This document shows positions 14,305 through 59,872 of a stretch of 59,872 bases of DNA, piece after piece (the stretch's first letter is position 1; each line of letters opens with the position of its first letter). Below the pieces are notes generated by a model. That model worked only from the letters and a program-made list of their open reading frames with translations. It made no database searches and had not been told where the DNA came from. A program made the translations under genes and the position numbers. Origin of the DNA: a bacterium (GTDB lineage: Bacteria > Patescibacteriota > Saccharimonadia > CAILAD01 > GCA-016700035); NCBI GenBank assembly GCA_020854115.1, contig JADZGC010000016.1, forward strand, positions 1-59,872, read 5' to 3'.

Positions 14305-14312
14305 ACCTGATA

Positions 14313-15122
14313 TTATACGCGCTTTTCAGATAAAGCAGAGTCCGGGGCAGACTGCATCTCGGCTCGCAAGATCTGAAAGAGCTGTCGCATACTATCCGCT
14401 ATCTGTTGAGAGTGAATCACGGTACCAAAAACTTCCTGACCATAGCTCAAATAGGCCACTTTATCAGCATAGATATTGATTTCAACCGGCATACTATAGC
14501 GATCAGAGTCATAAAACGTATGCTCGATGAGATGCGCCTTGTGTTTTGCAAGCGTCCTGGGAAGCGTGAACCCTTGCGGTGTGAGTGCCTGCACCTTAAT
14601 CCCCATGCGGATACGAGTAGCGACAAAACCATCAAGGTATTCACTCCCCAGAAAATCATGCTGATTTGGAGAAATGATGAGCATCACATCGGCTTTGGTC
14701 TGCAATATGTCATCATATATATCCTTCAGTCCCTCGATACCCTGATACTGTCGCACGGCTGGCTGCTCGGTGAGCTGATGATAGCGCTGCGTGAGAGTTG
14801 GCAGAAGTGACTTAAAGCGATATTCGTTATTGAGCAAAATATTTCTTCGCTTCTCAGCGAGCATTTCGATTTGAATCGGATTGGCTGGCAAATAGCTCAA
14901 TCGCTTACCCATCTTTGACTTGGTTATGAGGTTGAGCTGCTCAAGGCGCGCAAGGATCGAATATGCATTTGTACGAGTTTCGCCAAGCTTTTCGGTCAAG
15001 AGTGCCGGTGTGATCTCACCGATATCTAGGGCCAATAAATATGCTGCAGCTTGATTCTGCTTGAATCCAAGCCCCTCCAGAATGCCGATATCGCTTGGTT
15101 GTTGTGGATTTGTCGATTTCAT
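14313..15122 (-). CDS. TrmB-family transcriptional regulator
   Basis: N-terminal winged helix (res ~10-75: LGFKQNQAAAYLLALDIGEITP ... TRTNAYSILARLEQLNLI) matches the TrmB HTH, followed by a helical linker and a C-terminal PLD-like sensor domain seen in TrmB proteins (VMLIISPNQHDFLG). Such proteins usually sense sugars in archaea; the ligand here is unknown. TATAAT lies 9 nt upstream of the ATG. It is divergent from the cassette at 15472, 57 nt from that promoter, and could be its regulator (inference from position only). Confidence 0.8.
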   Translation of the reverse strand: MKSTNPQQPSDIGILEGLGFKQNQAAAYLLALDIGEITPALLTEKLGETRTNAYSILARLEQLNLITKSKMGKRLSYLPANPIQIEMLAEKRRNILLNNEYRFKSLLPTLTQRYHQLTEQPAVRQYQGIEGLKDIYDDILQTKADVMLIISPNQHDFLGSEYLDGFVATRIRMGIKVQALTPQGFTLPRTLAKHKAHLIEHTFYDSDRYSMPVEINIYADKVAYLSYGQEVFGTVIHSQQIADSMRQLFQILRAEMQSAPDSALSEKRV

Positions 15123-15178
15123 TTCGACATAATTATAGCAAATATATATCTGTAAGTCTAGTGTTTTGCCATTTAATA

Positions 15179-15471
15179 TTGACTATTCATGCTATTTACC
15201 CCATACTGTGCCCATCAAAACAAACCGCACCTCACAGCGCTTAACAGTCCCCCACAAAGCCCTATAGGCAGATGAATTATCACCTCTCTCAGGACTTTAC
15301 GGCCTCCCCGCAATAAACCATTCTTTAATCTCGGCAGCAGCTTCGGAACTGCTGCCGGGATCACAAAGATCTCGGGTGTGAAAACCCGGCGTAATTCCGA
15401 AACCGGACTCATACAGCAACGGCCCAGTGACCGACTCACTGAAACAGCACCTACCTATGCAAGGAGAAATC
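15179..15471 (+). promoter_or_regulatory. promoter and ~258-nt structured leader
   Basis: TTGACT (15179-15184), 17 bp, CATACT (15202-15207). The leader holds a UUCG-type hairpin CGGCAGCAG..CTGCTGCCG (15333-15358), a second hairpin CGGGT/ACCCG near 15374-15388, then the cassette octamer GCACCTAC (15447-15454) and SD AAGGAGA just before 15472. No known riboswitch class was recognised. It fills the 15123-15471 gap. Confidence 0.65.
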
Positions 15472-16014
15472 ATGGCCCGTGAGGGTTTCATCAGCCAGGA
15501 CGATCGCCGCAAGGTCGCCTCAGACACCATCTGGGGACTGTCCCGTGGCACATTCGTCATCGTGGCAGTCATCATCGTGGCCAGCGTCATCGGCGCTGCC
15601 TCTTGGGGCATCAGCGTCGCTATCAGCGACGTGCGTGGTGCCGGGGATGTCGTGCAGCGTCGCAATGATGCCAACAACCGCATCGGCGCGCAGGCCTTCT
15701 TCGAGGACACCTTCGCCAGCATCAAGGCGCAGGACCGCAAGTTGACCGATGCACGGGCCGATCTGGACGAGTTCTTGTCCACCACGCCGCAGCCCTCAAG
15801 CTCGGACTTGGTGCAAGCACAGCTCTACACACAGCAGCTCAAGGCCAAGCAAACGACGGTGACCGGTCTCCAGCAGGCCTGTCAGGACGCCGTCGCGCGC
15901 TACAACGCCGAAGCCCGGAAGACCATCCGTGGCGAATGGCGGTCCGAAGACTTGCCGTACCAGATCGACACCACGTCGACCACCGACGAGACGGACTGCC
16001 AGCCGGCAGCCTGA
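15472..16014 (+). CDS. single-span membrane protein, GC-rich cassette
   Basis: Unrecognised. Starts MAREGFISQDDRR with SD AAGGAG 7 nt before; a longer frame from 15427 runs into the leader. One hydrophobic segment (~res 27-50, FVIVAVIIVASVIGAASWGI) is followed by an extracellular/periplasmic helical, coiled-coil-like domain and an acidic Thr-rich tail. Codon choice is visibly richer in G and C at third positions than neighbouring housekeeping genes and resembles actinobacterial genes. Pairs with the following lipoprotein, 74 bp away. Confidence 0.75.
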   Translation: MAREGFISQDDRRKVASDTIWGLSRGTFVIVAVIIVASVIGAASWGISVAISDVRGAGDVVQRRNDANNRIGAQAFFEDTFASIKAQDRKLTDARADLDEFLSTTPQPSSSDLVQAQLYTQQLKAKQTTVTGLQQACQDAVARYNAEARKTIRGEWRSEDLPYQIDTTSTTDETDCQPAA

Positions 16015-16088
16015 TCGAGTTCGAGTCCACCCATCCACACCCCGGGAGGGGGCAAGTCGCCCCCTCCCAACAAACCAGAAAGAGACTC

Positions 16089-16686
16089 ATGAAAAACCTG
16101 AAGAAATACCTCATCCTGCCGCTACTCGTCGCATGTGTCGGCTTCACCGCCGTGGCCTGCAGCGATGGCCCAAAGGCGGACTCCGCCCAAGGAGCCACCC
16201 AGAAGGTCGCTGAGGAGTACAGCAAGGCGGGCCGTCCAGGCCGTTCCCTACCCGCTGCAGGAGATGAAAGAGGGCGGCTGGCTCGAGCGCATGAACTTGC
16301 GTGAGCGCCTCATCCGCTACTCGGATTCGAACAAGATCAGCTACATCTACTTGTTCTCGGATCAAGGTCAGCTCCTGGCCAACTACACCGTGAAGGGAAA
16401 GGTGTCCAACACCAGCTCCCAGATGACCACCGCTCAAACGGTCGACGACTACTGCGGATCGGGCAAATACTGCCCGATGGCAATCGACGCCCCGATGGAC
16501 GATGGCACCTGGGGTCCCTCCGAGGACGCCATCTTCTTCTTCACCACCGACGGTGTGATGGTGCAGTGGTCCGGCCAGTACGTGCTGGCCGATGCCCCGC
16601 TAGACCTCACCACCCAGCCGGTGCTGGTGTACAACACGGGCTCCAAACCCACCTCGGTCGCCGACGAAAAGAACTACGGCGGCTAA
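16089..16686 (+). pseudogene. lipoprotein with +1 frameshift
   Basis: The first frame gives a classical lipoprotein signal (MKNLKKYLILPLLVACVGF then lipobox AVAC at res ~24-27) but ends early at a TGA. A second frame continues with a well-formed domain: VPYPLQEMKEGGWLERMNLRERL, then NKISYIYLFSDQGQLLANY and KGKVSNTSSQMTT, a domain seen in actinobacterial lipoproteins as far as can be recalled. The join requires skipping one base near 16228-16242 (GGCGGGCCGTCC). Either a sequencing/assembly indel, a real null allele, or a shift event; no classic slippery site is apparent. SD AAAGAGA precedes the ATG. Confidence 0.7.
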
Positions 16687-16701
16687 CTCCCGTATGACAA
16701 T

Positions 16702-16775
16702 CGAGGGCCTTTTGCCCCTCGTCTGATACTCGAGCAGCCTCTCGAGTCACCCACCCCTTGCAGCATAGGGGTGGG
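16702..16775 (+). terminator. triple hairpin terminator array
   Basis: Three consecutive stems: CGAGGG/CCCTCG (16702-16721), CTCGAG/CTCGAG (about 16729-16746), CCCACCCC/GGGGTGGG (16750-16775). Closes the GC-rich cassette. Confidence 0.7.
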
Positions 16776-16822
16776 CTTACCCATATTTGCATAATTACCG
16801 ATACTACCAGCATAATGAATTC

Positions 16823-17137
16823 ATGAGTAATGTAGATGACGAACCAGGACGCGAGCTTTCTGCCTATGAGGAGATCGTCGGTATCGATACTCCAGATGGG
16901 CGCGAACAGCTCAAAGAAGCTCTCCAAGGTATGCGCGATCTGGCAGTACAACATACTCCTCGTGACGAATCAGATCCAGACTGGCGACTGACCGAAGAGG
17001 AAAGAGCAGCTGGTCGTCGAGGTGTGCAGGAAGCACGCGCCGCCATTCGAGCAACTGAGTCGCCTACCGAACGACTTGCACGCGAAAAACGAGAGCGAGA
17101 ACAACCCGGCTCTCAGCCAGAAAACGACCCACAATAA
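16823..17137 (+). CDS. small acidic/charged hypothetical protein
   Basis: 104 residues from MSNVDDEPG, very rich in Glu and Arg, no membrane segment, probably mostly helical. Start 16823 is chosen because CATAAT (16811-16816) ends 6 nt upstream with TTGCAT 18 bp before it, giving a leaderless promoter; the longer frame from 16787 would begin upstream of this box. No family recognised. Followed by a terminator. Confidence 0.65.
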   Translation: MSNVDDEPGRELSAYEEIVGIDTPDGREQLKEALQGMRDLAVQHTPRDESDPDWRLTEEERAAGRRGVQEARAAIRATESPTERLAREKREREQPGSQPENDPQ

Positions 17138-17156
17138 GCGGGTCGTTTTCCTTTTA
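17121..17156. terminator. bidirectional terminator
   Basis: AAAACGACCC (17121-17130) / GGGTCGTTTT (17140-17149), then CCTTTTATT. Serves the plus-strand small gene and, through the A-run, the convergent rpoD. Confidence 0.85.
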
Positions 17157-17167
17157 TTCCCTGCTGT

Positions 17168-18295
17168 TTATTGCAAGTAATCTTTGAGACGCCTAGAGTC
17201 TTTGTGCTTACGCAGCTTCGCCAAAGCTTTCGCTTCTATCTGGCGAATACGTTCACGAGTCACGCCAAACTCCTGGCCGACTTCTTCGAGCGTATGACTT
17301 CTGCCATCCTCGAGTCCAAAGCGCATACGCAAGATCTTCTGTTCTCGCGGCGTAAGTAGCGATAGCGTGTTGTTGATATGCTCCTTCAGAAGCTCATACG
17401 TCGCAGCATCGACTGGAGAGACTGAGTCCTGATCCTCGATGAACTCTCCCAGAGTAGAGTCTTCATCTTCACCAACTGCAGCGTCAAGCGAAGTGGTGTC
17501 CTGACTAATCTTCTGAATATGCAAGACTTTCTCAACATCCATCTCCATCTCTTTTGCCAGCTCTTCGGGGCTTGGTTCGCGGCCAAGCTCACTGGTAAGT
17601 CGACGCTGCGTGCGAATCAGCTTATTGATCGTCTCCACCATGTGTACCGGAATGCGAATCACACGAGCCTGGTCAGCGATAGCGCGGGTAATAGCCTGTC
17701 GAATCCACCAGGTAGCATAGGTCGAAAACTTAAAGCCTTTGGTGTAGTCGAACTTTTCGACAGCTCTCAGTAGACCCGTATTTCCTTCCTGAATGAGATC
17801 GAGCAAATCTAGACCGCGACCAATATACTTCTTCGCAATCGACACCACGAGACGCATGTTCGCTTCCGCCAGAGCATCCTTAGCTGACTTGTCGCCAGCT
17901 TGAATCCGCTTCGCAAGCGCAACTTCTTCTTCAGCATTAATCAGCGGGATCTTACCGATCTCACGCAAGTACAGGCGTACGGAGTCATCTGCGATATCCT
18001 TGATAGCTTCTTCGCTGACAGCATTCTCGACATCCTCTTCTGGCTCTGTCTGCCAGATCAGTTTATCTTTTTGATCAACCACTTCGATACCTGCATCGAT
18101 CAAAGCCGAGTAGAGGTCGTCTAAGAGATCGACCTGATCTTCTGCCTGCGGAATAGCTTGTAATACTTCTTGTTGAGTAACAAATCCTTGCTCGCGGCCC
18201 TTCGTGACAAGTCGCTCGACAGCTGGCTTAAATTCTTCTGGGATGTTTGGCTCGAGGTTACGGCCTTCGGCAGGTTGAGCTTTTTTGCGTGGCAT
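17168..18295 (-). CDS. rpoD: primary RNA polymerase sigma factor
   Basis: Recognises the -35/-10 boxes described throughout this window. Regions 1.2-4.2 are intact: [19 protein letters not shown], the -10 binding [19 protein letters not shown], and the region 4 helix-turn-helix [20 protein letters not shown]. At 375 residues the long non-conserved region between 1.2 and 2 is absent, as in most non-proteobacterial RpoD. SD GGAAGG before the ATG; 42 bp after dnaG, the classical dnaG-rpoD pair. Confidence 0.97.
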
Positions 18296-42244: not shown

Positions 42245-43365
42245 GTATTTTTTGGACGAAGTTCGAACATTTTTTGAGGAAAACCCCCAATAAGGAAGCC
42301 AGAAACTACGAAATGGAATTTGGCCCGCTTGGGCGCCACTTGGTTATGTAAACGACAAAAACGCCCGCTGTATCGCCGTGGACAAAGAAAAGGCAAAGTA
42401 TATCAAGCGAGCTTTTGAAATGTACTCAACTGGCGAATATCCCCTCGCTCAAATCCGAAAGATTATCAATTCCTTGGGCTTGGTTGGCAAAAAGAATAAG
42501 GTGCTTTCCGTCTCAAATTATCAGTATATGCTGAAAAATAAAATCTATTACGGAATGATTGAATATAACGGCGAATTATATGACGGAAAGCATGAACCGA
42601 TTATCACAAAGAAACTTTTTGATTCCGTTCAAGAAGTGATGATGAGAAAATCAAAGCCGAAAACGCCAAAATTGAAACCGTATGTGTACAGAGGATTTTT
42701 CCTTTGCGGAGAGTGCGGCTGTTTTATAACGACCGAAACACAGAAAGGTCATAACTATTTGCGATGCACCAAGCGGAAAAATCCTTGCACGCAAAAATAT
42801 GTCCGCGAAGAAATCATCACTTCTCAAATAAAAGAAGAAATCAAAAAAGTTTCTTTGTCTTCCGCTTGGGCAAATGCTTCAATCAATTATTTTGAAAATG
42901 AAAAAATGAAACTTGCCAAAGCGGAAAGCTCTTTCGCCCAAAAAGCGAGAAATGAGCTTGTAGAGATAGAAACAAAACTTGATCGTTTGCTTGATTTACA
43001 ACTGGACGGCAATTTATCGCAAGCGGAATATACCGCTAAAAAGCACAAGCTCATTCTCGCTAAAAAGGATTTGGAAGAAAAAATCTCCGCTTTTGGGCGA
43101 AAGAGCAATAATCGGTTCGAACTTGCCATTGCCTTTCTAAAAGACGCCAACCAAGCCGAAAAATGCGCTCAACAAGAAAATCCCGAACGGATTCGGGATT
43201 TTCTCAAAAAGATTGGTTCGAACTTCCGCATTGCCGACCGCACTTTGTTTTTGGATTTCAAAAATGCCTTCAAAATTGCGGAAAAATACCATGCCGAGGC
43301 GCTTTGCGCCGAGGCAACATCTTTCAATTTCGCTGAATGTAAAACTTGGCGGAGAGAGAGGGATT
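42082..43365 (+). mobile_element. integrative element remnant at tRNA-Ser(GGA)
   Basis: The 19-bp direct repeats (42082-42100 and 43347-43365) bracket mini-element B plus a broken serine recombinase. The right copy is the functional tRNA 3' end, the left the displaced att copy. No cargo genes remain. AT-richer codon use inside the recombinase contrasts with its surroundings. Confidence 0.7.
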
Positions 43366-43472
43366 CGAACCCTCGGTACGGTTTCCCGCACACACGCTTT
43401 CCAAGCGTGCTCCTTCAGCCACTCGGACACCTCTCCAAGAATCACATCAATCAATACGACTTCGCATTGTAA
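42294..43472 (+). pseudogene. large serine recombinase, N-terminally truncated
   Basis: Homology can be read back past the annotatable GTG (42378) to QKLRNGIWPAWAPLGYVND, where an in-frame TAA (42291) stops it; the N-terminal catalytic resolvase domain with its nucleophilic Ser is absent. Remaining: recombinase domain (KAKYIKRAFEMYSTGEYPLAQI), zinc ribbon (CGECGC and, downstream, CTKRKNPC), and a long coiled coil (res ~170-230). The last ~45 codons run antisense through tRNA-Ser(GGA), so the original stop was probably lost on integration. A remnant. Confidence 0.85.
43347..43436 (-). tRNA. tRNA-Ser (GGA)
   Basis: Acceptor GGAGAGG/TCTCTCC (one wobble), G73, encoded CCA; anticodon stem CACGC/GCGTG, loop TTGGAAA; long variable arm; T-arm GAGGG-TTCGAAT-CCCTC. 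Confidence 0.95.
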
Positions 43473-45392: not shown

Positions 45393-45797
45393 TTGGCTTT
45401 CAAGACCACACAGGAGAACTGGCTCAGCGAGCTTCGCAAGCGAGTCAACCTAGACAAGGGCAAGAAGCCCACCAGCCTGCTGGATGCACAGTTCTCCGAC
45501 TGCCAGGACTGCTGGGGATCCGTCATCCGACAGGAGCCCGAGTACGTCGTTCAATTCCTGATGAAGTACATCGTCACCAAGCCCTTTCAGCCGATGACCA
45601 ACTCGCAGTACCGCCGCCTCAAGGAACTGCTCATCGCGGTCTGCGAGCGCGCCGCTTTCCTCCGAGAGCGCGGCGGCGTCATGCGAGGTTTCGACGAACT
45701 CATGCAGGCTCTCGCCACGCACATGCCGGAGCTCAACCGCGACCTGCGGGAGCACGAGGAGTCACTGCAGCGCGAGTCGCTCGACCCCATCGCCTGA
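45393..45797 (+). CDS. helical hypothetical protein, GC-rich cassette
   Basis: 134 residues from a TTG start (AAGGAAGG 8 nt upstream). Soluble, predicted mainly helical, Cys pair in SDCQDCW. No family recognised. Closed by a strong terminator; convergent with the cassette at 45949. Confidence 0.75.
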   Translation: MAFKTTQENWLSELRKRVNLDKGKKPTSLLDAQFSDCQDCWGSVIRQEPEYVVQFLMKYIVTKPFQPMTNSQYRRLKELLIAVCERAAFLRERGGVMRGFDELMQALATHMPELNRDLREHEESLQRESLDPIA

Positions 45798-45842
45798 CAG
45801 GCACCACTTCGTGTGGGTAAGGCTTCGGGACCTGCACACACC

Positions 45843-45876
45843 GCCCCGGGACATCACGTCCCGGGGCACTTCTTTT
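45843..45876 (+). terminator. 10-bp GC stem terminator
   Basis: GCCCCGGGAC (45843-45852) / GTCCCGGGGC (45858-45867), then ACTTCTTTTATT. Confidence 0.93.
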
Positions 45877-45889
45877 ATTCATAAGATTA

Positions 45890-45937
45890 TTATAAAAAAA
45901 CAGGGTGTTGATCTGGAAATAATCCAGACCAACACCC
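45890..45937 (-). terminator. terminator of 45949 cassette
   Basis: Minus strand GGGTGTTGGTCTGGA / TCCAGATCAACACCC (45937-45903), then TGTTTTTTTAT. Confidence 0.93.
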
Positions 45938-45948
45938 AAGTGGGATCA

Positions 45949-46548
45949 TCAGCTCACGCCGACGAGCTCCCTTGTGTCGTCGACCTCATCGAGATCGTCG
46001 ATCTGATCGATGCACTCGGCATCCTCGCTCAGCTCGGAGCGATGGAATAACACATCGTCGAGATCCCTCAGTGCCTTGAGGATCGCCGCCATGTGGACCT
46101 GATTCAGCGGCCTGCGCGACCCCTGCCCTCGATCCAAGTCGAGCCACTCCTGCTGTTCGTGCGGAAGCCGCTCGAAGGCAGATGCGTACTCGGGATGCTG
46201 ACGCGTGGTACTGAACTCAGAAGTCGGGCCCAGGATGAGCAGCGCCCACTCACACCAGACTTCCCAGTAGTCAGCGAGCTCCTCGCGCATGACGAGACCC
46301 TCAGCAACCACCCAGGCCTCGTGTGCCTGACGGAAGAACTCCAGCCCGATCACCTTCTGAGGCGTTCTGTCCGAAAGCAGTGCTTCGCGGATCTTGTTCT
46401 TCATCAGATCGTTGGAATGGATCCTGCGGTAATGGTCGAAGTTGAGCTCATCGCGATCCAGAGCCAGCAATGCGACCACGGCCAGCTCATCGATCAGGTC
46501 AGCCTGTGTCAGCTGACGGACTTGCGGTAGGCGTGGGGAAGACTCCAC
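45949..46548 (-). CDS. acidic hypothetical protein, GC-rich cassette
   Basis: 199 residues from GTG (SD AAAGGGG). Soluble, rich in Glu/Leu/Asp, mainly helical with an acidic C-terminus (SEDAECIDQIDDLDEVDD). No family recognised. Promoter at 46626-46654; leader carries GCACCTAC. Confidence 0.75.
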   Translation of the reverse strand: MESSPRLPQVRQLTQADLIDELAVVALLALDRDELNFDHYRRIHSNDLMKNKIREALLSDRTPQKVIGLEFFRQAHEAWVVAEGLVMREELADYWEVWCEWALLILGPTSEFSTTRQHPEYASAFERLPHEQQEWLDLDRGQGSRRPLNQVHMAAILKALRDLDDVLFHRSELSEDAECIDQIDDLDEVDDTRELVGVS

Positions 46549-51291: not shown

Positions 51292-54057
51292 TTAAGACTC
51301 GGTCTCATCGGGTCGCGCTTCTGTATGTCGACCAAGCAAATATATCGCGCCAATTAACGCACCGACCCCAATTACGCCAAACCATACCCAGCCTGGAAGC
51401 TGGAAGATAAAGCCGGCGGTCTTATACAGTACGATCAGTACAAGTGTCCCGATTCCCCAGTCTCGCACCAAACGATAGTGCATTCCCATTCCTGCGACAA
51501 TCAGGACGATACCGAGCCCCATGATACTTATCGTATACCCGCCGGTCGTGTCATTGAGTGCCTCAAAAGCCAGTGGCACCGTCGATACGAAGAGTGCCCC
51601 TGCGGTCAGTGCATCTTGGGCCTGCCGCTCACCGCGCTGATACTGTCGATATGCCAGGGCAGCGATATAAACTGCCGTGGTCTGGACGTAAACCTGAGAG
51701 ATTGTAATACCGAATGCATCATAGAGCCTCAAGACACTAAGCCAAAACAATCCTGAGCCAATATATTTACCAGTTCTATTCTTTTGACGATAGCTCTCCG
51801 AGATTGTCATACCTGCTGCCAACGCACCCACCGACACCGACCACCATTCGACCTGTGCTGGCCTCGATTCACCAGCACTCATCGCAAATGCAATACTACC
51901 ACCCACGACTGCCGACAGACGTGCAACTGTGCCACGCCCATCCTCCACTGGCCATGCCAGGATATATATCACCGCCGACCACAAACCAATCGTCAAGAAT
52001 GTCGACCAGCCATAATGATCCGCTACCGACATCATGACGATATAGCTGCCAGCCACAGCTAGCCCTGTCGGCACACGCTTCTCTCGTTCTACAAACGAAG
52101 TTGCGAGCGTCAAAATAACCGGCACAAGAGCCGCTATACGCATCGCAATATGTGTATCGCTTAACGCTAATCCAAATGCTAGTAACAGTCCTGCGCCATA
52201 GCTAACTCCCATGAGCCGTGGTCGATTTTTCAGGCTCGGCAAAGCCTTGTAGAGCGCGTAGAATCCGACTCCAGACGCCAGCGCGAGCACATATCCGATC
52301 GCAGGCTGCCAATTGTATTGCGCGCTGGCAACAATAATGAAGGCGTTAATCCCCAACATCGCCCCGATAATCATCTGTGGACGTCGCTTCCGCGCGAGTA
52401 AGAAATAGCTCATTGATGAAGCGATTAGTACGCCCGTGCCCCAGTGATATGGATCTATCGCAACCGCCATGACGCTAGCAAGCACGGTCCAAATTACCAC
52501 CACTGCATCCTGCATTTCTGCAACAGCATCGTCGATCTTACTCAATACGAATTCGCTCACTACGCTCAATATGATCGCAAGCAATGCATAGACCAGCGCA
52601 ATCTGTCCAATCGCCCACCCGATCGGCATTAGATAGGTAAGGCAGATATACGGTAGGCTAGTCAGAACCAATAAAAACACCGCATACACTTCATGCCGCC
52701 GAGTCAAAACATAGTGGGACAAGAGTATTGCTGCTGAACCTAGTGTGAGAACAGAGCTTTGCTGCCCATCAAAAGGCAGCATCGGAGCCACTAGGCTCAA
52801 TGCGATAGCCAGCGCGGCATAAATCGGCTTATGTCGTGCTTCTGGTGCGTATTTGTCACCAACCACGTAACTCAAACCGATCAGGAGAAGAAGTACCGCT
52901 ATCACCCACATCGGGACTTGTCGACTATGTAATACGAGCCCAAAGCCAATTGGGAAAAGTGTGGCAGCCAGTCCGAGATACGTGACCTCTGCATCTGACT
53001 GATCAAAATCGCGTAAACCTGCACAGACCAGATAAAACGCAGCTGTGAGTACGAGCTGCGTACCGATCGCCCAGCTCCCGAATTCTTCCCAACCAAGCAG
53101 CGACAACACTACAGAGATTGGCACAAAGACCTGCGCACTTACATCGAGTGCTTCGACCAATTGCCTGTCCTTCATGACTCGCGCCAGAAAGATGTACGCT
53201 AAGCTCGTCAACATCATTACCCATCCATACCAGTACACCGGTGCTTCCAGAGTAGCGGTCAACGACTGGAAGAGAGAGACGGTGGTGAGGGCCGAGAAAT
53301 ACACGATATAGCTCTTACGGATCAGGGCGTATGTCAGAAGCTGAAGTACGAGCGCGATTGCTGTCGTCGCGAGCCAGATCGGCGCAGCTGGCTGACCATC
53401 GTAGAGTAGAGTCTGTACCGCCAAGCCAACGAGCGGCACCATCAGAAGGCCGATAGCCGCAAATGTTATTCCTGCCGGCTGAAAGCGCTTTGTGAGCCGA
53501 TACAGACACAGCCCCGAAATATAAAAAGCAGCTGTCAGAGCGCCAAGCATAACGACCTTGGTCATACTATCGATCGAGCCATAGTTGCTTCCGACAAACG
53601 TACCAGCCGCTATAACAATCAAGAACGCGCCAAGGTACAACAAGACATTAGCATTTTGCATCATCTTGCGGCTACGCTCAGCTAATGATGGTACAGGTGG
53701 CTTGGGTGGCTCAATAGTAACTGCCTTGAGGTTCGCCTGCTGATGCACGGCGGCTGGCGCGATCTCCACAATTTCTTTCGAAGCCTCCGTCAATTTGACG
53801 CCCTTGGCAAGTAGGGTTTGCATGCCAGCCCGAATCGATCGGGCTGCGCGATGCAATACCTCTGACTCCGCCGCAGTCTTCGCGCTCATTGCCAAGCGCT
53901 CCACCCTATCAGCGATCACCTCATCGGTCACTTGATCAAGTATCGGATTCGGGGGCTGATTGAGATGCTGTTGTGAAGGATTAGGTTGACCACGATGGCG
54001 ATTGTCATACCAGATGAGACCTACGACCGCAATGATCATCAGCAAAAAGACCAACAC
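51292..54057 (-). CDS. giant polytopic membrane protein (DUF2339/DUF2157-like)
   Basis: 921 residues. N-terminal anchor (LVFLLMIIAVVGLIWY), a ~120-residue soluble part, then more than 20 hydrophobic helices to the end. Architecture fits the DUF2339/DUF2157 group, of unknown function, frequent in Patescibacteria. GTG start with GGAGGG 7 nt upstream. No catalytic motif is visible. Confidence 0.7.
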   Translation of the reverse strand: MLVFLLMIIAVVGLIWYDNRHRGQPNPSQQHLNQPPNPILDQVTDEVIADRVERLAMSAKTAAESEVLHRAARSIRAGMQTLLAKGVKLTEASKEIVEIAPAAVHQQANLKAVTIEPPKPPVPSLAERSRKMMQNANVLLYLGAFLIVIAAGTFVGSNYGSIDSMTKVVMLGALTAAFYISGLCLYRLTKRFQPAGITFAAIGLLMVPLVGLAVQTLLYDGQPAAPIWLATTAIALVLQLLTYALIRKSYIVYFSALTTVSLFQSLTATLEAPVYWYGWVMMLTSLAYIFLARVMKDRQLVEALDVSAQVFVPISVVLSLLGWEEFGSWAIGTQLVLTAAFYLVCAGLRDFDQSDAEVTYLGLAATLFPIGFGLVLHSRQVPMWVIAVLLLLIGLSYVVGDKYAPEARHKPIYAALAIALSLVAPMLPFDGQQSSVLTLGSAAILLSHYVLTRRHEVYAVFLLVLTSLPYICLTYLMPIGWAIGQIALVYALLAIILSVVSEFVLSKIDDAVAEMQDAVVVIWTVLASVMAVAIDPYHWGTGVLIASSMSYFLLARKRRPQMIIGAMLGINAFIIVASAQYNWQPAIGYVLALASGVGFYALYKALPSLKNRPRLMGVSYGAGLLLAFGLALSDTHIAMRIAALVPVILTLATSFVEREKRVPTGLAVAGSYIVMMSVADHYGWSTFLTIGLWSAVIYILAWPVEDGRGTVARLSAVVGGSIAFAMSAGESRPAQVEWWSVSVGALAAGMTISESYRQKNRTGKYIGSGLFWLSVLRLYDAFGITISQVYVQTTAVYIAALAYRQYQRGERQAQDALTAGALFVSTVPLAFEALNDTTGGYTISIMGLGIVLIVAGMGMHYRLVRDWGIGTLVLIVLYKTAGFIFQLPGWVWFGVIGVGALIGAIYLLGRHTEARPDETES

Positions 54058-54117
54058 AATATACCCTCCAAGTTGTTACTTTGAAGTCTACGCCTTCGGG
54101 GAGGTTTGTGCAAAAAA

Positions 54118-55038
54118 TCAGCTTGAGCGACGCGCGCGCCCTCGATGCGTTCGGTATGGCGGTTTGTTCTTCAGGCGTTCATAAGAATCAGCGATACGTT
54201 CTGACGCATCAAGTGCATGCAGATTGATGATGTCGGGTCGAATGCGCACGAAGGCTGCGGGCTGCTGATTCTTCGGCTGTTGACTCGTGTGCTTCAGATG
54301 AATCCGATACCCACGATCATCCCAGGAATCAAGAAATCTCCAGCCGCTTTTGTCGATGGACTTCCCCCCACGTGGCCAGAGCATATGTGGCGTGCGCGCA
54401 CGCACATACGGTGATGTCTGTAGGATCTCCGCCCATATCTTCGCGCCGTAAACTGGCGTGGCAGTGAGCAGCCAGTAAATCAGGTGCGGGTCATTAATAA
54501 GCATAATATCGCGCTCAAGCGGCACACCCCGCGTCGTCATAAACATACCGAGACTGATTTTGCCCGCCTTGCGCTCTTCTGTCTCCAATACTCGAAGCCA
54601 CCGACTGAGCTTCCACAAAAGACCCTTTGCAACGAAGATCCTTCCGGGGGTCGTAACAATCAAAAGATCGATGTCGCTGTCATCATGTACATTGCCAATC
54701 GCGACACTATTTACAACTACCACTGCCCGTACAAATGGCAAGAGAGCCATAAAACGCCCGATGCGTCGTGCGCGCTTCAGGAGCGCCTCGCGCGCTAATT
54801 CACGAGAGTCCACGCGCACGTACCGCATCCCACGAAGCCCATACCTATCACCGATACGCTGGATCTTAGTCTCGAGTATCAATTCGCGCACCGCCCCTGC
54901 AACAGCCAGGTGGTTAGCGCGGACTGGCAAGTAATTTACCAATCGCTCCATACTTACAGGTACATTAAATACTGCGAAGTACGTCACCATATCGAGAACG
55001 GCTTGCTTGATATCAGCGTGTTTCTTGGCGGCATCCAT
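54118..55038 (-). CDS. nucleotidyltransferase-fold protein
   Basis: Winged-helix-like N-terminus (res ~10-75), then a minimal NTase core: SVAIGNVHDDSDIDLLIVT near res 110-128 with the two Asp of D-x-D, followed by a third acidic candidate and a basic tail. Such genes are common in Patescibacteria beside lipid/wall genes; substrate unknown. TAAGAT 6 nt before ATG suggests a leaderless mRNA. Confidence 0.75.
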   Translation of the reverse strand: MDAAKKHADIKQAVLDMVTYFAVFNVPVSMERLVNYLPVRANHLAVAGAVRELILETKIQRIGDRYGLRGMRYVRVDSRELAREALLKRARRIGRFMALLPFVRAVVVVNSVAIGNVHDDSDIDLLIVTTPGRIFVAKGLLWKLSRWLRVLETEERKAGKISLGMFMTTRGVPLERDIMLINDPHLIYWLLTATPVYGAKIWAEILQTSPYVRARTPHMLWPRGGKSIDKSGWRFLDSWDDRGYRIHLKHTSQQPKNQQPAAFVRIRPDIINLHALDASERIADSYERLKNKPPYRTHRGRARRSS

Positions 55039-55062
55039 CCCTGTATCTTATCTGGTGTCACC

Positions 55063-55103
55063 ACAAAGAAAAAGCCTCTCTCCCGGTATTTCGAGAGAGA
55101 GGC
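55063..55103 (-). terminator. terminator of acyltransferase gene
   Basis: Minus strand GCCTCTCTC / GAGAGAGGC (55103-55074), then TTTTTCTTT. Confidence 0.9.
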
Positions 55104-55109
55104 TGTAGA

Positions 55110-55982
55110 CTACAAAGCCAGGAGCTTCTGATGAGCTTCATGTGTACAGAGCTCCATCCGCTCACGCACATGACTACGCAATGCCGGGAGGTTAATCGCG
55201 TCCCACGGATTGCGTGCTGGCGTCATACTGAAGTCGGTAGGATCGATCGGCCCCCCGAAGACCGCCACACAGCGCCGACGCAAGAACCGACGCTTCACCA
55301 GTGCACCGTTCTTACGCTTGCCAGTACCCGCCAAACCAACTGGCACGATCTTGACATTGGCATTGATCGCTAAGCGCAGAGGGCCGGTCTTGATGTCCTT
55401 GACAGCGAGCGGGTCATCACGCGTCCCCTCTGCGAAGACCATGACCGAGTAGCCATCGTCGAGCATCAGATGAAGATGCGGCAAGGCATCGTCGCCCAGC
55501 AGTCCATAGCGAAACTGTTTGCCTGTTGCAATCTGATCAATGTCTTTGTCTCGAAAAACAAACACGCCGCTCAACCAGATCAGAACGCGAGAAAACCCGT
55601 AGATTTGACCCAACGGAGACTTCACCATCCAACCCACCACTCGCCTGATCGACAGACCGACCACGAAGATGTCGCGGATCGAGACGTGCTTGACCGCAAA
55701 GACCACCGGTAGGGGTAGGCGTTCGACATACTCATGCCCAAAGGCTGAGATATGCGGGACTGAAGCCATGGGCAGATTATCGAGACCGTACACGTCCCAG
55801 CGGCAGGTGCGGCGAAACACAAGCTCGACTAGCCGATGTGCAAAGGTATAAAAATTGGGATACACGCCGTACTTCGGTTGACGTCGACGTGCGTAGTCGC
55901 CGGTCCGCCTCACACGCTTGAGTACCTCTGGCGGATGTTTCAGCTTCTGACCGGTCGGATGATGTGCTCTGGCTTGATTCAT
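55110..55982 (-). CDS. PlsC-like lysophospholipid acyltransferase
   Basis: Acylates a glycerol-3-phosphate derivative or similar lipid. H-x4-D motif as KHVSIRD (family NHxxxxD), FAEGTR (family FPEGTR), and VPVGLAG. Start MNQARAHH at 55982 after AGGGGG; the frame to 56033 lacks an RBS. Other lipid genes are not seen here; scavenged fatty acids or lysolipids may be the substrates (inference). Confidence 0.85.
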   Translation of the reverse strand: MNQARAHHPTGQKLKHPPEVLKRVRRTGDYARRRQPKYGVYPNFYTFAHRLVELVFRRTCRWDVYGLDNLPMASVPHISAFGHEYVERLPLPVVFAVKHVSIRDIFVVGLSIRRVVGWMVKSPLGQIYGFSRVLIWLSGVFVFRDKDIDQIATGKQFRYGLLGDDALPHLHLMLDDGYSVMVFAEGTRDDPLAVKDIKTGPLRLAINANVKIVPVGLAGTGKRKNGALVKRRFLRRRCVAVFGGPIDPTDFSMTPARNPWDAINLPALRSHVRERMELCTHEAHQKLLAL

Positions 55983-56062
55983 GATCCCCCTGGATATGAA
56001 AGGTGCGAGTAAAAGTAGTGCTGATTGTAACAAAAACTCGTGCTTTGCGCATCAATAAATAT

Positions 56063-56094
56063 GCAAAAGGGGCGGGGTACCGTGACTCCGCCCC
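56063..56094 (-). terminator. terminator of micro-ORF unit 2
   Basis: GGGGCGG (minus, 56094-56088) / CCGCCCC (56075-56069), then TTTTGCAT on the minus strand. Confidence 0.8.
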
Positions 56095-56420
56095 CCGTGA
56101 GGCGCCGTTTGAGATCAGGCTTCTTTTTTCTCGCCCATTCTCTGCTGTCTGTAGGGTTGCCTGATGCATAGCCGGGTGCGACCCGCCTATGCATTTGGTA
56201 GTTCCAGATTACAAGGGGGCGACCCTCAGCAGAGACAAATTCTCTCCCCGGCTAGGGTATGAATTGGTGCATTATTAGGTGCTCCTCCCCCATAAGACAT
56301 GTCGAGTGCGCGGCTCTCGGGCCCCGCGATCTTCTGAGTCGGCAACGGAACCATCCATTGATTTAGGATGGCTTGGCTCAAAGTTTTACTTCCCTGAGCT
56401 CCATGAGAGAAGTGGGTCGG

Positions 56421-56471
56421 CTACGCCGGCTTTCGGCCCCCGCGGGGCTTGGCGTGGACGAAGGTCTTCAA
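56421..56471 (-). CDS. 16-residue basic micro-ORF
   Basis: TTG start (56471) preceded by a near-perfect AAGGAGGTGA at 5-nt spacing; product KTFVHAKPRGGRKPA is strongly basic. A TTGACA (56624-56619) with a weak TGTCAT -10 at 17 bp lies upstream. Downstream to 56095 more SD-like sites occur (GGGGGAGGAG near 56290) but no long frame. Confidence 0.45.
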   Translation of the reverse strand: MKTFVHAKPRGGRKPA

Positions 56472-56654
56472 ATTCACCTCCTTGGAGGTCTCTGGGCAGT
56501 TAGCTGCCGACGAAACTCAGTGGCCGCCCGTGAGCAACAGAGCTGTGTGCTGGTGGGCGATCCCCCTGGACAGTCCGCGAACGGACATGAGTGGGATGAC
56601 ATCAGGATTATTAATGATTGTCAATACTAAGTAACAAGTTTAGTAAAACAGAAC

Positions 56655-56686
56655 GGGGTGGCAGGGACCGAAGTCCCTACCACCCC
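56655..56686 (-). terminator. terminator of micro-ORF unit 1
   Basis: GGGGTGGTAGGGAC-TTCG-GTCCCTGCCACCCC on the minus strand, followed by GTTCTGTTTTAC. Confidence 0.8.
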
Positions 56687-56756
56687 TATGTGCCGTCCCC
56701 GCTTTCGCGGCTCTGGTTTGTCACCGCACGTTGACGCCGGTGACCGAGATAACTCA

Positions 56757-57136
56757 CCTCCTTCTGCGAACATATCACGTAGAAGGCTACACGTTAGTTG
56801 CACTGGCGCTGTCGGCCAACGTCGAGGACATCATCGCAGCCCTCACTCCATCAAGCGGAGGTCTTGGGCTCGCGACTGATTGACCCTCAGGATTCACTTC
56901 GGACAGTCCCAGATGATACGTGTGAGGCAATCCTGCCCCGGAGCAGATTCCTTAGCACAGCTTGGCGTCAGGACACTGAGTGTCTACGCGGCACTAGTAG
57001 CCACTCGCTCAGATGCTTCGGTCGTGCGCACTGCTATACCAGCATCTCTCTTAGAACACGTTTCACCTACGACTACGATGTCCTGACGAATGCCTGATTC
57101 GTTCTCGGATTTCAGATGAAGCAGCCGGTCTCGTAG
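56757..57136 (-). other. non-coding part of micro-ORF unit 1, structured
   Basis: No long frame with RBS. A long-range helix GCGTCAGGAC/GTCCTGACG joins about 56966-56975 and 57082-57090, enclosing smaller stems. A perfect AAGGAGGTGA near 56754-56763 precedes a possible 23-codon GTG frame (56686-56757). Candidate structured RNA or long spacer. Confidence 0.35.
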
Positions 57137-57187
57137 CTAGGCCGGAGACCGAGCGCAAGGCTGCACATGCATGCCCCCTGCGTTCAT
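57137..57187 (-). CDS. 16-residue micro-ORF
   Basis: ATG (57187) after AAAGGAG; product MNAGGMHVQPCARSPA. Follows the 47-residue gene by 44 nt. Low information content, supported mainly by the RBS. Confidence 0.4.
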   Translation of the reverse strand: MNAGGMHVQPCARSPA

Positions 57188-57231
57188 CAGACTCCTTTCG
57201 ATCGGGTCGACACCTCGCCCTTGAACGAGGG

Positions 57232-57375
57232 CTAGATGCCGGCGAGCCTCGGGTTCATGCGGGTCCCGGTATTCTCGGGTGTGGTGCGAACCAGCTTCCT
57301 GTCGCTGTACTCGCCATCACGGGGGTTGTAGGTGCGGTCGGGCCCACGGATGCGGACCCCTGGCTTCTTGAGCAC
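57232..57375 (-). CDS. 47-residue basic small protein
   Basis: GTG start (57375), RBS AAAGGGG 4-5 nt upstream, TAG stop. Basic and Gly/Pro/Arg-rich (KKPGVRIRGPDRTYNPRDG ... MNPRLAGI), likely extended. GC-rich codon choice as in the cassettes. First gene of a unit with a strong promoter. No family recognised. Confidence 0.65.
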   Translation of the reverse strand: MLKKPGVRIRGPDRTYNPRDGEYSDRKLVRTTPENTGTRMNPRLAGI

Positions 57376-57428
57376 GAGTGCCCCTTTCTGCCAAGCTAAT
57401 GCCCCTCATGGGCCTCAGCGGTTTTTAT

Positions 57429-57457
57429 ATACTACGCCCGGGGATTTCTATCGTCAA
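57429..57457 (-). promoter_or_regulatory. promoter of micro-ORF unit 1
   Basis: Minus strand TTGACG (57457-57452), 17 bp, TAGTAT (57434-57429). Confidence 0.85.
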
Positions 57458-57474
57458 TACACCTTTCGAGAGAA

Positions 57475-58869
57475 TTATGCAGTGAACTTTTTCACCAAAC
57501 TTGAGAGTTCTTGATGCGCTTTAGTCAGTACCGTCCTATTCTTGGCTTCGAGATTGATCCGTACGTATGGTTCGGTATTACTTGGTCGAATATTTGCCCA
57601 CCAATCCTCAGCACGTATCGTGAGGCCATCTAGTTCGTCACATTTCATCTGGGAATAATGCTGCTTTAGCGCCGCGATCAAGTGTTCGCCCTGGTTTGTC
57701 TTAATGTCTTCCTCGACAATGTGCGCATACTTTTTATATGGCCCGATGAGCTCTGATAGCTTCTTATCAGTCTCGCTCATTATGCCAAGCACCATCACAG
57801 CAGCGATTAATCCGGAATCAGCAAAAAAATTATCACGGAAGAAGAAATGACCAGCTCCTTCACAGCCAAAAACCGCATTCGATGAGCGCATCTGCTCCTG
57901 CACATAGGTGTGCCCCACCTTTGATCGAATCGCCTTGCCGCCAAGGCCTTCGACAGTCTCCGGGACAATATCACCGATCACTGCATTGTAGACCACGCAG
58001 GCATGCTCATTTTCTTTTAAAAACGTTGCTGCTAGAAGCGCACCGAACTCGCTCGAAGTCACCGCCTCACCAGTCTCGTCGACAACAAAACACCGATCAC
58101 CGTCCCCATCAAAGGCAATGCCCAGATCAAGCTCATTGCGCCGTACGAGCGTCTGCAGATCTTCGATAGCTTCTGGGAGAATTGGATTGGCGGGATGGTT
58201 TGGAAATGTGCCGTCCAGCTCCATATAGAGACCCGAAATATCGAGAGGAGTCAGCTCCTGAAGCTTCGGTACTGCCAGGGCACCCATGCCATTACCAGCA
58301 TCAATACCAACCTTCAGCGGCTTGAGCTCACTGCCCGCAAACCGCAGGGCATGCTCCACCCAATCTGAGAGAATGTTCTTCTCAAGCTTGCGACCTACTT
58401 CCTCGACCTTATGAAACGATTGATCAATCACTGCTTGTTTGATCTCCAGCAAGCCCGAATCAATCCCTACAGGACTCACGCCAGCTGCGGTCAACTTGAT
58501 GCCATCGTATTCGCCTGGATTATGGCTCGCGGTAATCATTGCGCCACCTGCCAGATCGTACTGACCAACCGTAAACGAGATCATATCGCTAGTAATCATG
58601 CCCACATCGAGCACTTCTCTCCCCTGCTGAATCAAGCCATCTATAAAGGCCGTCGCCAGCTGCTCTGAGTCCGTCCGCATATCTCTCCCAACCGCCACGA
58701 TGCCATCTGGGAGCGTGTCTGCAAAAGCCCGGGCGATGTCTCGTGCGATGTCTGCATTGAGCTCTTCTGGCACAAGTCCGCGGATATCGTATGCCCGAAA
58801 AATACGATCCAGTCTCTCCTGATCTGAAGAACCCGAGGACTCCCCTGCCTGTTCTATAATTCCACCCAT
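57475..58869 (-). CDS. phosphomannomutase/phosphoglucomutase
   Basis: Interconverts hexose-6-P and hexose-1-P for wall and surface sugar nucleotides. AYDIRG near the N-terminus, phosphoserine loop TASHNPGEYDGIK, metal loop FDGDGDR, sugar loop and the phosphate-binding RPSNTEPYVR. TATAAT (58884-58879) ends 9 nt before ATG 58869, so MGGIIEQ is the likely leaderless start; ATG 58875 lies too close to the box. Confidence 0.95.
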   Translation of the reverse strand: MGGIIEQAGESSGSSDQERLDRIFRAYDIRGLVPEELNADIARDIARAFADTLPDGIVAVGRDMRTDSEQLATAFIDGLIQQGREVLDVGMITSDMISFTVGQYDLAGGAMITASHNPGEYDGIKLTAAGVSPVGIDSGLLEIKQAVIDQSFHKVEEVGRKLEKNILSDWVEHALRFAGSELKPLKVGIDAGNGMGALAVPKLQELTPLDISGLYMELDGTFPNHPANPILPEAIEDLQTLVRRNELDLGIAFDGDGDRCFVVDETGEAVTSSEFGALLAATFLKENEHACVVYNAVIGDIVPETVEGLGGKAIRSKVGHTYVQEQMRSSNAVFGCEGAGHFFFRDNFFADSGLIAAVMVLGIMSETDKKLSELIGPYKKYAHIVEEDIKTNQGEHLIAALKQHYSQMKCDELDGLTIRAEDWWANIRPSNTEPYVRINLEAKNRTVLTKAHQELSSLVKKFTA

Positions 58870-58923
58870 ATGCATGCCATTATACAAGAAGCACAAACCG
58901 AATGCTTGTCTTCGAGTAAGCTC

Positions 58924-58952
58924 TTGACTAGTATGTCTATGATTGCTATAGT
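58924..58952 (+). promoter_or_regulatory. promoter of rod-like RNA
   Basis: TTGACT (58924-58929), 17 bp, TATAGT (58947-58952). Confidence 0.85.
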
Positions 58953-58958
58953 GTATAG

Positions 58959-59107
58959 TACGTACCTTACAGTACTAAGGCGAGACGCTTAGGCGAACGA
59001 CCTCGGGAGCTACGGCTTCAAGAGAGGTCTGTCTTACTCTTGGCGCCTACACTCCCGTCCTCGGGCTGAGAGGTCGCCATTGTAGCTCGTCTAAGCGTCT
59101 CGGATCA
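58959..59107 (+). ncRNA. rod-shaped small RNA, 6S-like in outline
   Basis: Closing helix GAGACGCTTAGGCGA (58982-58996) / TCGTCTAAGCGTCTC (59087-59101), 15 bp with one G-U; inside it CGACCTC/GAGGTCG, GGGAG/CTCCC and CAAGAG/CTCTTG stack with internal loops to a single rod. No ORF. A long rod with an internal bubble recalls 6S RNA, but no sequence signature confirms it. Confidence 0.6.
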
Positions 59108-59327
59108 CCATTTCCTGACGATGTCTACGAGCCCCCCCATCGCGGGGAAGACATGCTAACATCGTCGACAAAAAGTTCGGCCTCCCGCGCCGAACACACC
59201 AGGTTCCCGCCAACCTGGTGTAGCCCGAGGGTGGGGGCCCCACCACCCCACCCTCGGGCGCCCACCTCGTCGTTTTTGTCGAGGTTTTCTTTTTTGTTAT
59301 TTTTTCGAGCTTCGTCCCTCTGTCGAA
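59108..59327 (+). other. serial hairpins downstream of the rod RNA
   Basis: GACGATGT/ACATCGTC (about 59117-59168), GTTCGGC/GCCGAAC (59177-59197), ACACCAGGTT/AACCTGGTGT (59196-59221) and CCCGAGGGTGG/CCACCCTCGGG (59223-59258), then T-rich sequence from 59272. Probable terminator array or 3' domain of the RNA. No gene seen. Confidence 0.5.
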
Positions 59328-59872
59328 TTACCAAAAAATATTACCTGCCACTCGATGATATACTCGATGAAACCAAGGCTCGAGCTTCGTCCAGTGTCGA
59401 TATACCTCGGGCTTTAGCGCATATTCCCAGCCGCCAATAAACTCTGTTATTTCCTCATTAAAGCCAGACTTAAACTGATACAGACCCCACATCGAGTGCT
59501 CAGAGTTCAACTTGTCCTTCGGTGGCACGGCAATCAGATCGTACTCTTTGGCCCCCCGGTCTCGCGCCCAGCACATCACCTCGTACTGCAGGAGATACGG
59601 CGCCATGAGATTGCGCTTCGCGCCACTTGAGCCACCCTCTTTGTAATATGCCTTGTCACCGAAGATCATGGCATACTCGGCTGCCAGCACTTCACCCTCA
59701 TGCAGCGCGACGAAGAATTGCCCCATCCCCGCCTCAGCCAGTGCCCGCCAGTACGCCCTAAATGCCTGCTTCGGGCGCAGGAAGAAACCCGCCCTCCCCT
59801 GTGTAGCACGCATCAGCTCGTACATGGTATCGACCATTTCATCGGTTGCTGGCCGCTTCTCGATCGTCACGC
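59328..59872 (-). CDS. FemAB-like peptidoglycan bridge aminoacyltransferase, partial
   Basis: C-terminal ~180 residues of a FemX/FemAB protein, continuing beyond the window edge (GTG at 59870 is internal). GNAT-like second domain with FFVALHEGEVLAAEYAMIFGD, YYKEGGSSGAKRNLMAPYLLQYEVM and GLYQFKSGF. Adds amino acids from tRNA to lipid-linked wall precursors. No terminator signal separates it from the T-rich tract. Confidence 0.88.
   Translation of the reverse strand, partial: VTIEKRPATDEMVDTMYELMRATQGRAGFFLRPKQAFRAYWRALAEAGMGQFFVALHEGEVLAAEYAMIFGDKAYYKEGGSSGAKRNLMAPYLLQYEVMCWARDRGAKEYDLIAVPPKDKLNSEHSMWGLYQFKSGFNEEITEFIGGWEYALKPEVYRHWTKLEPWFHRVYHRVAGNIFW

Follow-up and report, generated by a model that had tools for sequence, protein, structure and literature searches.

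Two Promoter-Led, Structured Units after Phosphomannomutase in a Saccharimonadia Genome May Each Carry a Small Frame in a GC-Rich Codon Style

Two adjacent minus-strand units directly downstream of a phosphomannomutase gene, T1 (~57424-56655) and T2 (~56590-56061), are tentatively read here as mostly structured RNA transcripts that may each carry one frame written in a minority, GC-rich codon style, a reading that we hold at a little under even confidence. The window analyzed is a whole stretch of 59,872 nucleotides and constitutes contig 16 of a genome of 790 kb. The organism is tiny and probably host dependent; Patescibacteria rely on other bacteria. We refer to the genome of the window as G000, to a genome of the same family as G001, and to one of a different family as G011.

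Anatomy of the two units

The minus-strand gene order is a FemAB-type transferase, phosphomannomutase (57475-58896), T1, T2, an acyltransferase (56033-55110), a nucleotidyltransferase-like protein scoring just below the Pfam cut-off, a 921-aa membrane protein, and GroES and GroEL, the last two identified by eye. A first-pass annotation of this zone had described a promoter, a 47-codon frame, and 16-codon frames with Shine-Dalgarno sequences, and the sequence confirms all of these on the minus strand. The features, all on the minus strand, are as follows.

57429..57457, minus: T1 promoter, sigma70-type, TTGACG-17-TAGTAT (scan; 9 of 12 consensus positions)
57395..57419, minus: T1 5' stem-loop, near the expected transcript start (minimum-energy fold and sequence)
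57232..57375, minus: ORF47 of T1, GTG start, predicted basic peptide of 47 aa, AAAGGGG at 57387-57381 (codon statistics, folding)
56690..57231, minus: T1 3' part, moderately structured, z -2.2 (folding)
57187-57137, minus: 16-codon T1 frame preceded by AAAGGAG, codon support absent (codon score)
56965..57088, minus: domain bounded by the inverted repeat GCGTCAGGAC (56965-56974) and GTCCTGACG (57080-57088) (folding)
56754..56763, minus: copy of AAGGAGGTGA in T1, lacking a well-spaced start and mostly paired (pair probabilities, shuffles)
56655..56686, minus: T1 terminator, 14-bp stem with UUCG loop (scan)
56596..56624, minus: candidate T2 promoter, TTGACA-17-TGTCAT, second hexamer weak (sequence; not called by the scan)
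56102..56600, minus: T2 body, moderately structured, z -2.0 (folding)
56474..56489, minus: ACCTCCAAGGAGGTGA, Shine-Dalgarno of the T2 frame within a self-complementary stretch (pair probabilities 0.44-0.61)
56421..56471, minus: T2 frame MKTFVHAKPRGGRKPA, 16 codons and a stop when read from its TTG, or 18 codons when read from the GTG at 56477 (codon statistics)
56277..56283, minus: AGCACCT motif in T2, common to leaders of foreign-coded genes and other slot RNAs (motif count)
56069..56094, minus: T2 terminator-like GC-rich stem, then only four T (by eye and in the fold; not called by the scan)

T1 starts directly after the phosphomannomutase stop and ends in a 14-bp stem, and T1 and T2 are, by this anatomy, likely transcription units. 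T1 has a promoter and a terminator, while both are weaker in T2. Two strong terminators had been proposed; the T1 stem was called by the scan, but the T2 stem, with its four T, was recognized by eye and went uncalled. Promoter-like sites in 54000-59872 numbered 4 versus 4.5 in shuffles, and terminator-like sites 4 versus 4.6. Since such matches occur at the shuffle level, their value lies in their position.

Rfam 15 returned no family at gathering score in the region (best subthreshold E values, 7.5 and 8.1). Covariance models for tmRNA (RF00023) and RNase P RNA (RF00010) had no match there, and both genes were located elsewhere in the genome. An overlooked native gene of at least 40 codons, on either strand, was likewise rejected: the best candidate scored +0.09 per codon, whereas genes average 0.22 (sd 0.08).

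Homologue searches and codon usage

Conservation of the frames, expected in the first-pass annotation if the peptides are real, did not hold for ORF47: searches of 391 other genomes gave only chance-level matches, in 23 genomes, with a best E value of 0.045. A nine-residue ORF47 pattern had no match in viral_contigs or genome_contigs, and ORF47 had no match in phages and two weak ones in plasmids (E values of 2 and 4). Nothing was found for the T2 frame with a 20-base exact piece in viral_contigs, with tblastn in the examined loci, or in DNA searches. At the DNA level, T1 and T2 had no homologue in 60 relatives, phages, or plasmids, and exact pieces of 20 and 18 bases were absent from viral_contigs. 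Since ORF47 was found nowhere else in these searches, the case for translation consists of the codon statistics of 47 and 16 to 18 codons.

Those statistics are unusual for this genome, in which the GC content at third codon positions (GC3) of 262 long frames averages 0.52 (sd 0.074). GC contents at codon positions 1, 2, and 3 are 0.60, 0.53, and 0.85 in ORF47 and 0.61, 0.50, and 0.89 in the T2 frame read from its GTG, and both frames show the periodicity of genes from GC-rich genomes. Synonymous codon usage in both is closer to that of a foreign-coded gene set, described below, than to that of native genes. Given its amino acid sequence, ORF47 favors the foreign-coded set over native genes by +17.5 bits; same-length native-type windows average -23.6 bits, and 3 of 1235 reach its score. 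The ORF47 peptide, with 11 K/R versus 5 D/E, is basic. Among the ten T1 frames of at least 14 codons, eight score negative, and the only positive frame besides ORF47 has 18 codons (+6.3). Three of the five T2 frames are also negative, and a 23-codon frame scores +6.7 versus +6.6 for the MKTFVHAKPRGGRKPA frame of 16 to 18 codons; scores near 6 bits are weak, since other short frames score alike. The proposal of several tiny basic genes thus gains support from codon usage for ORF47 and, more weakly, for MKTFVHAKPRGGRKPA, but not for MNAGGMHVQPCARSPA (-2.8 bits) or for the frame at 56757, whose containing open frame scores -7.2 bits. Altogether, codon usage suggests that ORF47, and less surely the T2 frame, is probably a gene of the foreign-coded type.

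Length says little on this point. A sense frame of at least 47 codons appeared in 1605 of 2000 T1 shuffles, so the length of ORF47 carries no meaning. When GC3 of at least 0.85 and an excess of at least 0.25 over positions 1 and 2 were added, 1 of 2000 T1 shuffles qualified, and 5 of 2000 T2 shuffles held a frame of at least 18 codons with GC3 of at least 0.88 and the same excess; these thresholds were chosen after the frames were seen.

The ribosome-binding sites had been regarded as too perfect to be a likely accident. With overlapping hexamers merged, each unit holds one distinct Shine-Dalgarno sequence with a start, and at least one such site occurred in 707 of 2000 T1 shuffles and 341 of 2000 T2 shuffles, so that these sites are ordinary. 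The full 10-mer AAGGAGGTGA, which we take to be the full complement of the 16S rRNA tail, is less easily obtained by chance (1 of 2000 T1 shuffles and 0 of 2000 T2 shuffles) and occurs three times in the window versus 0.07 expected. One copy lies in each unit, and the third serves an ordinary gene at 44051 as its ribosome-binding site; other sampled stretches of the genome held one further copy (L058), with L001, L018, and L150 merely repeating the copies in the two units. Rarity of the full 10-mer is therefore the part of the argument that stands, but its copies in the units are paired: that in T2 (56483-56474) lies within the self-complementary ACCTCCAAGGAGGT and is about 60% paired, and that at 56763, which has no start, is paired to about 85%.

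Folding

T1 gave z scores of -4.43 with its terminator (20 shuffles), -3.10 (40 shuffles), and -2.42 without the terminator. The portion containing ORF47 scored -0.33 alone and the 3' part -2.22, and the predicted fold of T1 is located outside its long frame. T2 scored -2.28, -1.81, and -2.04 across runs, and in the 40-shuffle run its opposite strand scored -1.97 versus -1.81 for the sense strand. The 20 coding controls ranged from -0.91 to 1.59, and of 40 strand-stretches outside the coding controls, 16 had z scores below -3, T1 sense among them. Since intergenic stretches of the window often fold as well or better, the moderate structure of T1 and T2 is not special.

A structured stretch closed by an inverted repeat had also been proposed. 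The repeat helix forms in a fold of the isolated domain (z -1.18), but its probability is 0.00 in the full-length ensemble, and the repeat itself is at chance: at least one exact inverted 9-mer occurred in 199 of 500 T1 shuffles, and the two seen were matched by 88 of 500.

A recurrent slot and a recurrent motif

Phosphomannomutase was found in 13 of 17 genomes of the order, and 12 of these could be assessed for the slot that follows it (the G003 contig ends there). A promoter and a structured noncoding RNA occupy this slot in 10 of the 12, including G000 and G001, and are absent from G004 and G008; promoters in the slots of relatives were judged by eye. The slot RNAs of relatives are mostly strings of long hairpins, lacking a comparable frame, with z scores of -2.6 to -10.8 in eight genomes outside the family and -1.83 in G001 (G007, close to G013, was left out of this scoring). 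As a promoter-led structured RNA right after phosphomannomutase, T1 has the anatomy of a slot RNA, and most slot RNAs of relatives are more structured than either T1 or T2.

Place is what these RNAs share. Compared with the slot sequences of relatives, T1 and T2 gave a best blastn E value of 0.84 and no nhmmer hit. A domain shared by G010 and G015 has double changes that keep pairing at 7 of 27 predicted pairs (two sequences only). When 392 genomes were scanned with the model built from it, R1, the two parent sequences were the sole matches, and the window had none. At this sensitivity, the idea that one covariance family is widespread in the slot was rejected. Judged by these comparisons, the folded portion belongs to a fast-changing type, linked to its place rather than to its sequence. 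Near the end of the window, on the plus strand at 58953-59295, a further unit, T3, opens with a promoter (TTGACT-17-TATAGT) and continues as a run of long hairpins, with z scores from -4.6 (over the first 248 bases) to -8.5. It holds no sense frame of at least 14 codons, and its build is like that of the slot RNAs of relatives.

Across 23 leaders and slot RNAs, AGCACCT was the most overrepresented of the 7-mers present in at least four sequences (9 sequences; z 12.6, versus a maximum of 6.3 in 20 shuffled sets), the motif having first been spotted by eye in several of them. The degenerate form AGYACCT occurred 15 times versus 1.07 expected (0 of 500 shuffles), once in T2 and never in T1. In G000, it lies near the starts of 4 of 9 GC3-rich genes versus 10 of 339 others (P = 0.0002), with three of the four coming from the discovery set. 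Genes that bear the motif exceed the others in GC3 in G000 (P = 0.035) and in G001 (P = 0.029); the difference was nonsignificant in G004 (P = 0.28) and G011 (P = 0.096), the genomes outside the discovery of the motif.

The foreign-coded gene set

High-GC3 genes were present in all four genomes sampled. In 409 kb of the window's genome there were 10 GC3-outlier frames, ORF47 included; the others comprise P_A and P_B (15472-16686), frames at 45393-45797 and 47461-47141, a metalloprotease-like lipoprotein, and others. At least one outlier (L051, 46 aa) may be spurious, and in G011 many are probably spurious frames. For the foreign-coded proteins tried, PHROGs and NCBIfam gave nothing usable and Pfam gave no match above its cut-off.

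P_A and P_B match phage proteins, with best E values of 6e-7 and 9e-19, respectively. Queried with the G001 copy, P_A returned 26 records, all from Arthrobacter, Microbacterium, or Curtobacterium phages; P_B returned 48, of which 28 were from phages of these three genera and the rest from Rhizobium, Fusobacterium, and other phages. P_A was found in 3 of 392 genomes of the class. In G000 and G011, P_A and P_B have the same neighbors on both sides, a synteny that spans families, and their GC3 is 0.80 to 0.83 versus a genome mean of 0.52 and, in G011, 0.64 and 0.69 versus 0.29. The module (11548-18295 in the window; L064 in G011) adjoins a regulator, which looks TrmB-like to us, and the P_B frame is interrupted near 16230 in the window. 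Rfam identified a second tmRNA gene in this genome (L065:7101-7443) and in G011 (L064:16154-16484), both near paralogues of this regulator and GC3-rich frames; ARAGORN called only the one in G011, with a tag, GKTNDELKRQPDF, lacking the usual ALAA-type end.

The metalloprotease-like lipoprotein, named by eye from an HELGH motif and a signal peptide, is 57% identical between G000 and G001, with GC3 of 0.85 and 0.84 and differences at 42 of 73 four-fold sites; phosphomannomutase from the same genomes is 63% identical, with GC3 of 0.53 and 0.47. Of 392 genomes of the class, 2 contained the metalloprotease-like gene, and a pattern-based scan of genome_contigs found it in a single record, from Patescibacteria. 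The two copies (L060:3025-4068 and L113:3-764) have a Thr-rich linker and, by eye, a similar 5' hairpin in their leaders. A gene resembling CDP-alcohol phosphotransferase by motif was present in 15 of 17 genomes of the order and in 0 of 82 others. Its GC3 exceeds the mean of its neighbors in 15 of 15 genomes and every listed neighbor in 13 of 15, from 0.88 versus 0.47 to 0.55 in G004 to an excess of 0.03 or less in G005, G008, G009, and G015; the small GC3 differences may be due in part to the amino acid composition of membrane proteins.

High GC3 kept through such long residence makes recent transfer unlikely as the sole cause. Selection for high expression is also an unlikely source: the few highly expressed genes checked lack high GC3, with values of 0.23 to 0.36 for EF-Tu, S12, S19, DnaK, and RpoC in G011 and 0.55 to 0.60 for GroEL, DnaK, and RpoC in G000 and G004. 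These genes were located by loose motifs; two matches, probably misnamed, were excluded, and G001 gave none.

In three genomes, strong promoters lie upstream of 33 to 50% of the foreign-coded set versus 14 to 25% of native genes with an upstream gap, and in the fourth upstream of 25% versus 35%, with 4 to 9 foreign-coded genes in each genome. Structured leaders precede P_A, in three genomes, and the metalloprotease-like gene, while the part of T1 occupied by ORF47 is not structured. Elsewhere in the window, 45393-46548 holds two GC3-rich frames (GC3 0.85 and 0.75), each with AGCACCT in its leader; neither had a match in phages, and Pfam gave nothing above its cut-off for them. On the minus strand, T5 (47641-46688) has a promoter and a strongly folded 5' part (z -6.9) and looks like one structured transcript, with a lysine/arginine-rich frame of 106 aa (GC3 0.90) and one of 46 aa (GC3 0.83); the 106-aa protein had no match in phages or viral_contigs. 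A recombinase-like gene, identified by eye, beside tRNA-Ser(gga) at 42378-43472 looks like an inserted element.

Proposed explanation and alternatives

In the reading that we put forward tentatively, T1 would open with a 5' stem-loop and a ribosome-binding site, continue with one translated frame for a 47-aa basic peptide, and finish with a folded 3' region ahead of its terminator, and T2 would be a structured RNA whose 16-codon frame has a strong ribosome-binding site inside a hairpin. Both frames would use the codon style of the minority gene set that includes the actinophage-related module, and the two units would belong to the fast-changing, promoter-led structured-RNA units that follow phosphomannomutase across the order. 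The sequences themselves show the anatomy, the codon signature, and the filled slot of relatives; we infer both transcription and translation of the frames. The folded RNA would stabilize the message and control its translation, and codon usage and the phage-like companions suggest that the peptides might act on, or inside, a partner cell rich in GC, probably an actinobacterium. It is conceivable, but in our judgment unlikely, that these Patescibacteria possess a set of messages and structured RNAs written for host ribosomes, delivered into an actinobacterial host, and translated there, with T1 and T2 being two of them and encoding small basic peptides; such a set would have its own promoters, stabilizing folds, and host-type codons conserved over long evolution.

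It is quite possible, if on balance doubtful, that T1 and T2 are purely noncoding structured RNAs whose frames are GC-rich accidents, AAGGAGGTGA pairing with its own RNA or with 16S rRNA rather than initiating translation. The slot RNAs of relatives, which lack comparable frames, the frame lengths and single ribosome-binding sites expected by chance, the unconserved ORF47, and the largely paired copies of AAGGAGGTGA, one of them startless, would all agree with this. Accidents of composition are harder to reconcile with a GC3 pattern reached in 1 of 2000 shuffles for ORF47 and at the T2 thresholds in 5 of 2000, with +17.5 bits for ORF47 against negative scores for eight of the other nine frames in T1, and with an unfolded part of T1 that coincides with ORF47. 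Were the foreign codons instead a mark of recent horizontal transfer, T1 and T2 would be remnants of genes or RNAs of an actinobacterium or its phage that landed in the slot. The resemblance of P_A and P_B to proteins of Arthrobacter, Microbacterium, and Curtobacterium phages fits this account, which we nevertheless consider improbable, given that the same two genes are syntenic in different families with GC3 far above that of both genomes, that the two metalloprotease-like genes, equal in GC3, have differences at 42 of 73 four-fold sites, and that ORF47 has no phage match, two weak plasmid matches (E values of 2 and 4), and a pattern absent from genome contigs. Short frames, ribosome-binding sites, and hairpins upstream of a same-strand gene might also recall leader or attenuator peptides regulating the downstream acyltransferase (56033-55110). 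Such a role seems very improbable: T1 stops at a strong terminator; T2 has a terminator-like stem, although its poor T-run leaves read-through possible; and the gene next to the slot RNA in relatives is the nucleotidyltransferase, with no intervening acyltransferase.

Implications and comparison with known systems

How Patescibacteria act on their hosts is largely obscure. A set of genes that retains host-like codons across families, in opposition to the composition of its own genome, would be a list, drawn from sequence alone, of candidate host-acting genes that could be tested at once in cultured Saccharibacteria, and T1 and T2 suggest that some candidates may be very small and lie in transcripts that gene callers take as empty. 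The foreign-coded micro-genes hint that such messages may concern the partner cell. Excerpts of published work supply some context: certain Saccharibacteria grow on Actinobacteria, and spacers of both target some predicted Saccharibacteria phages (PMC10746230); a conjugation-related secretion system, mostly lacking a relaxase, is described in Patescibacteria (PMC12102498); and cultured Saccharibacteria can be transformed with genes optimized to their own codons (PMC10633639). Units like T1 and T2 are described neither in these excerpts nor among the matches listed for Saccharibacteria or Patescibacteria on the subjects of codon usage, small RNA, and noncoding RNA.

Several known systems share some of these traits. 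Patescibacteria genes acquired from hosts or phages have foreign composition, as do the genes considered here, whose high GC3, in contrast, is kept in orthologues and in one case in synteny across families. The phage module P_A/P_B, related to proteins of Arthrobacter, Microbacterium, and other phages, shares its foreign codon usage with T1 and T2 in this genome, although the two units show no sequence relation to phages. Small mRNAs for microproteins with structured leaders or tails have, like T1 and T2, a promoter, a ribosome-binding site, a short frame, and a terminator; in T1 and T2, however, the frame has codons of another genome type, and most of the transcript is predicted to be folded RNA. 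GOLLD, ROOL, and OLE are orphan large structured bacterial RNAs. RNAs of this type resemble T1 and T2 in being several hundred bases long and structured, with their own promoter and an unknown role, whereas T1 and T2 lack an Rfam match or a sequence family, carry a codon-biased frame, and share only their slot with the RNAs of relatives.
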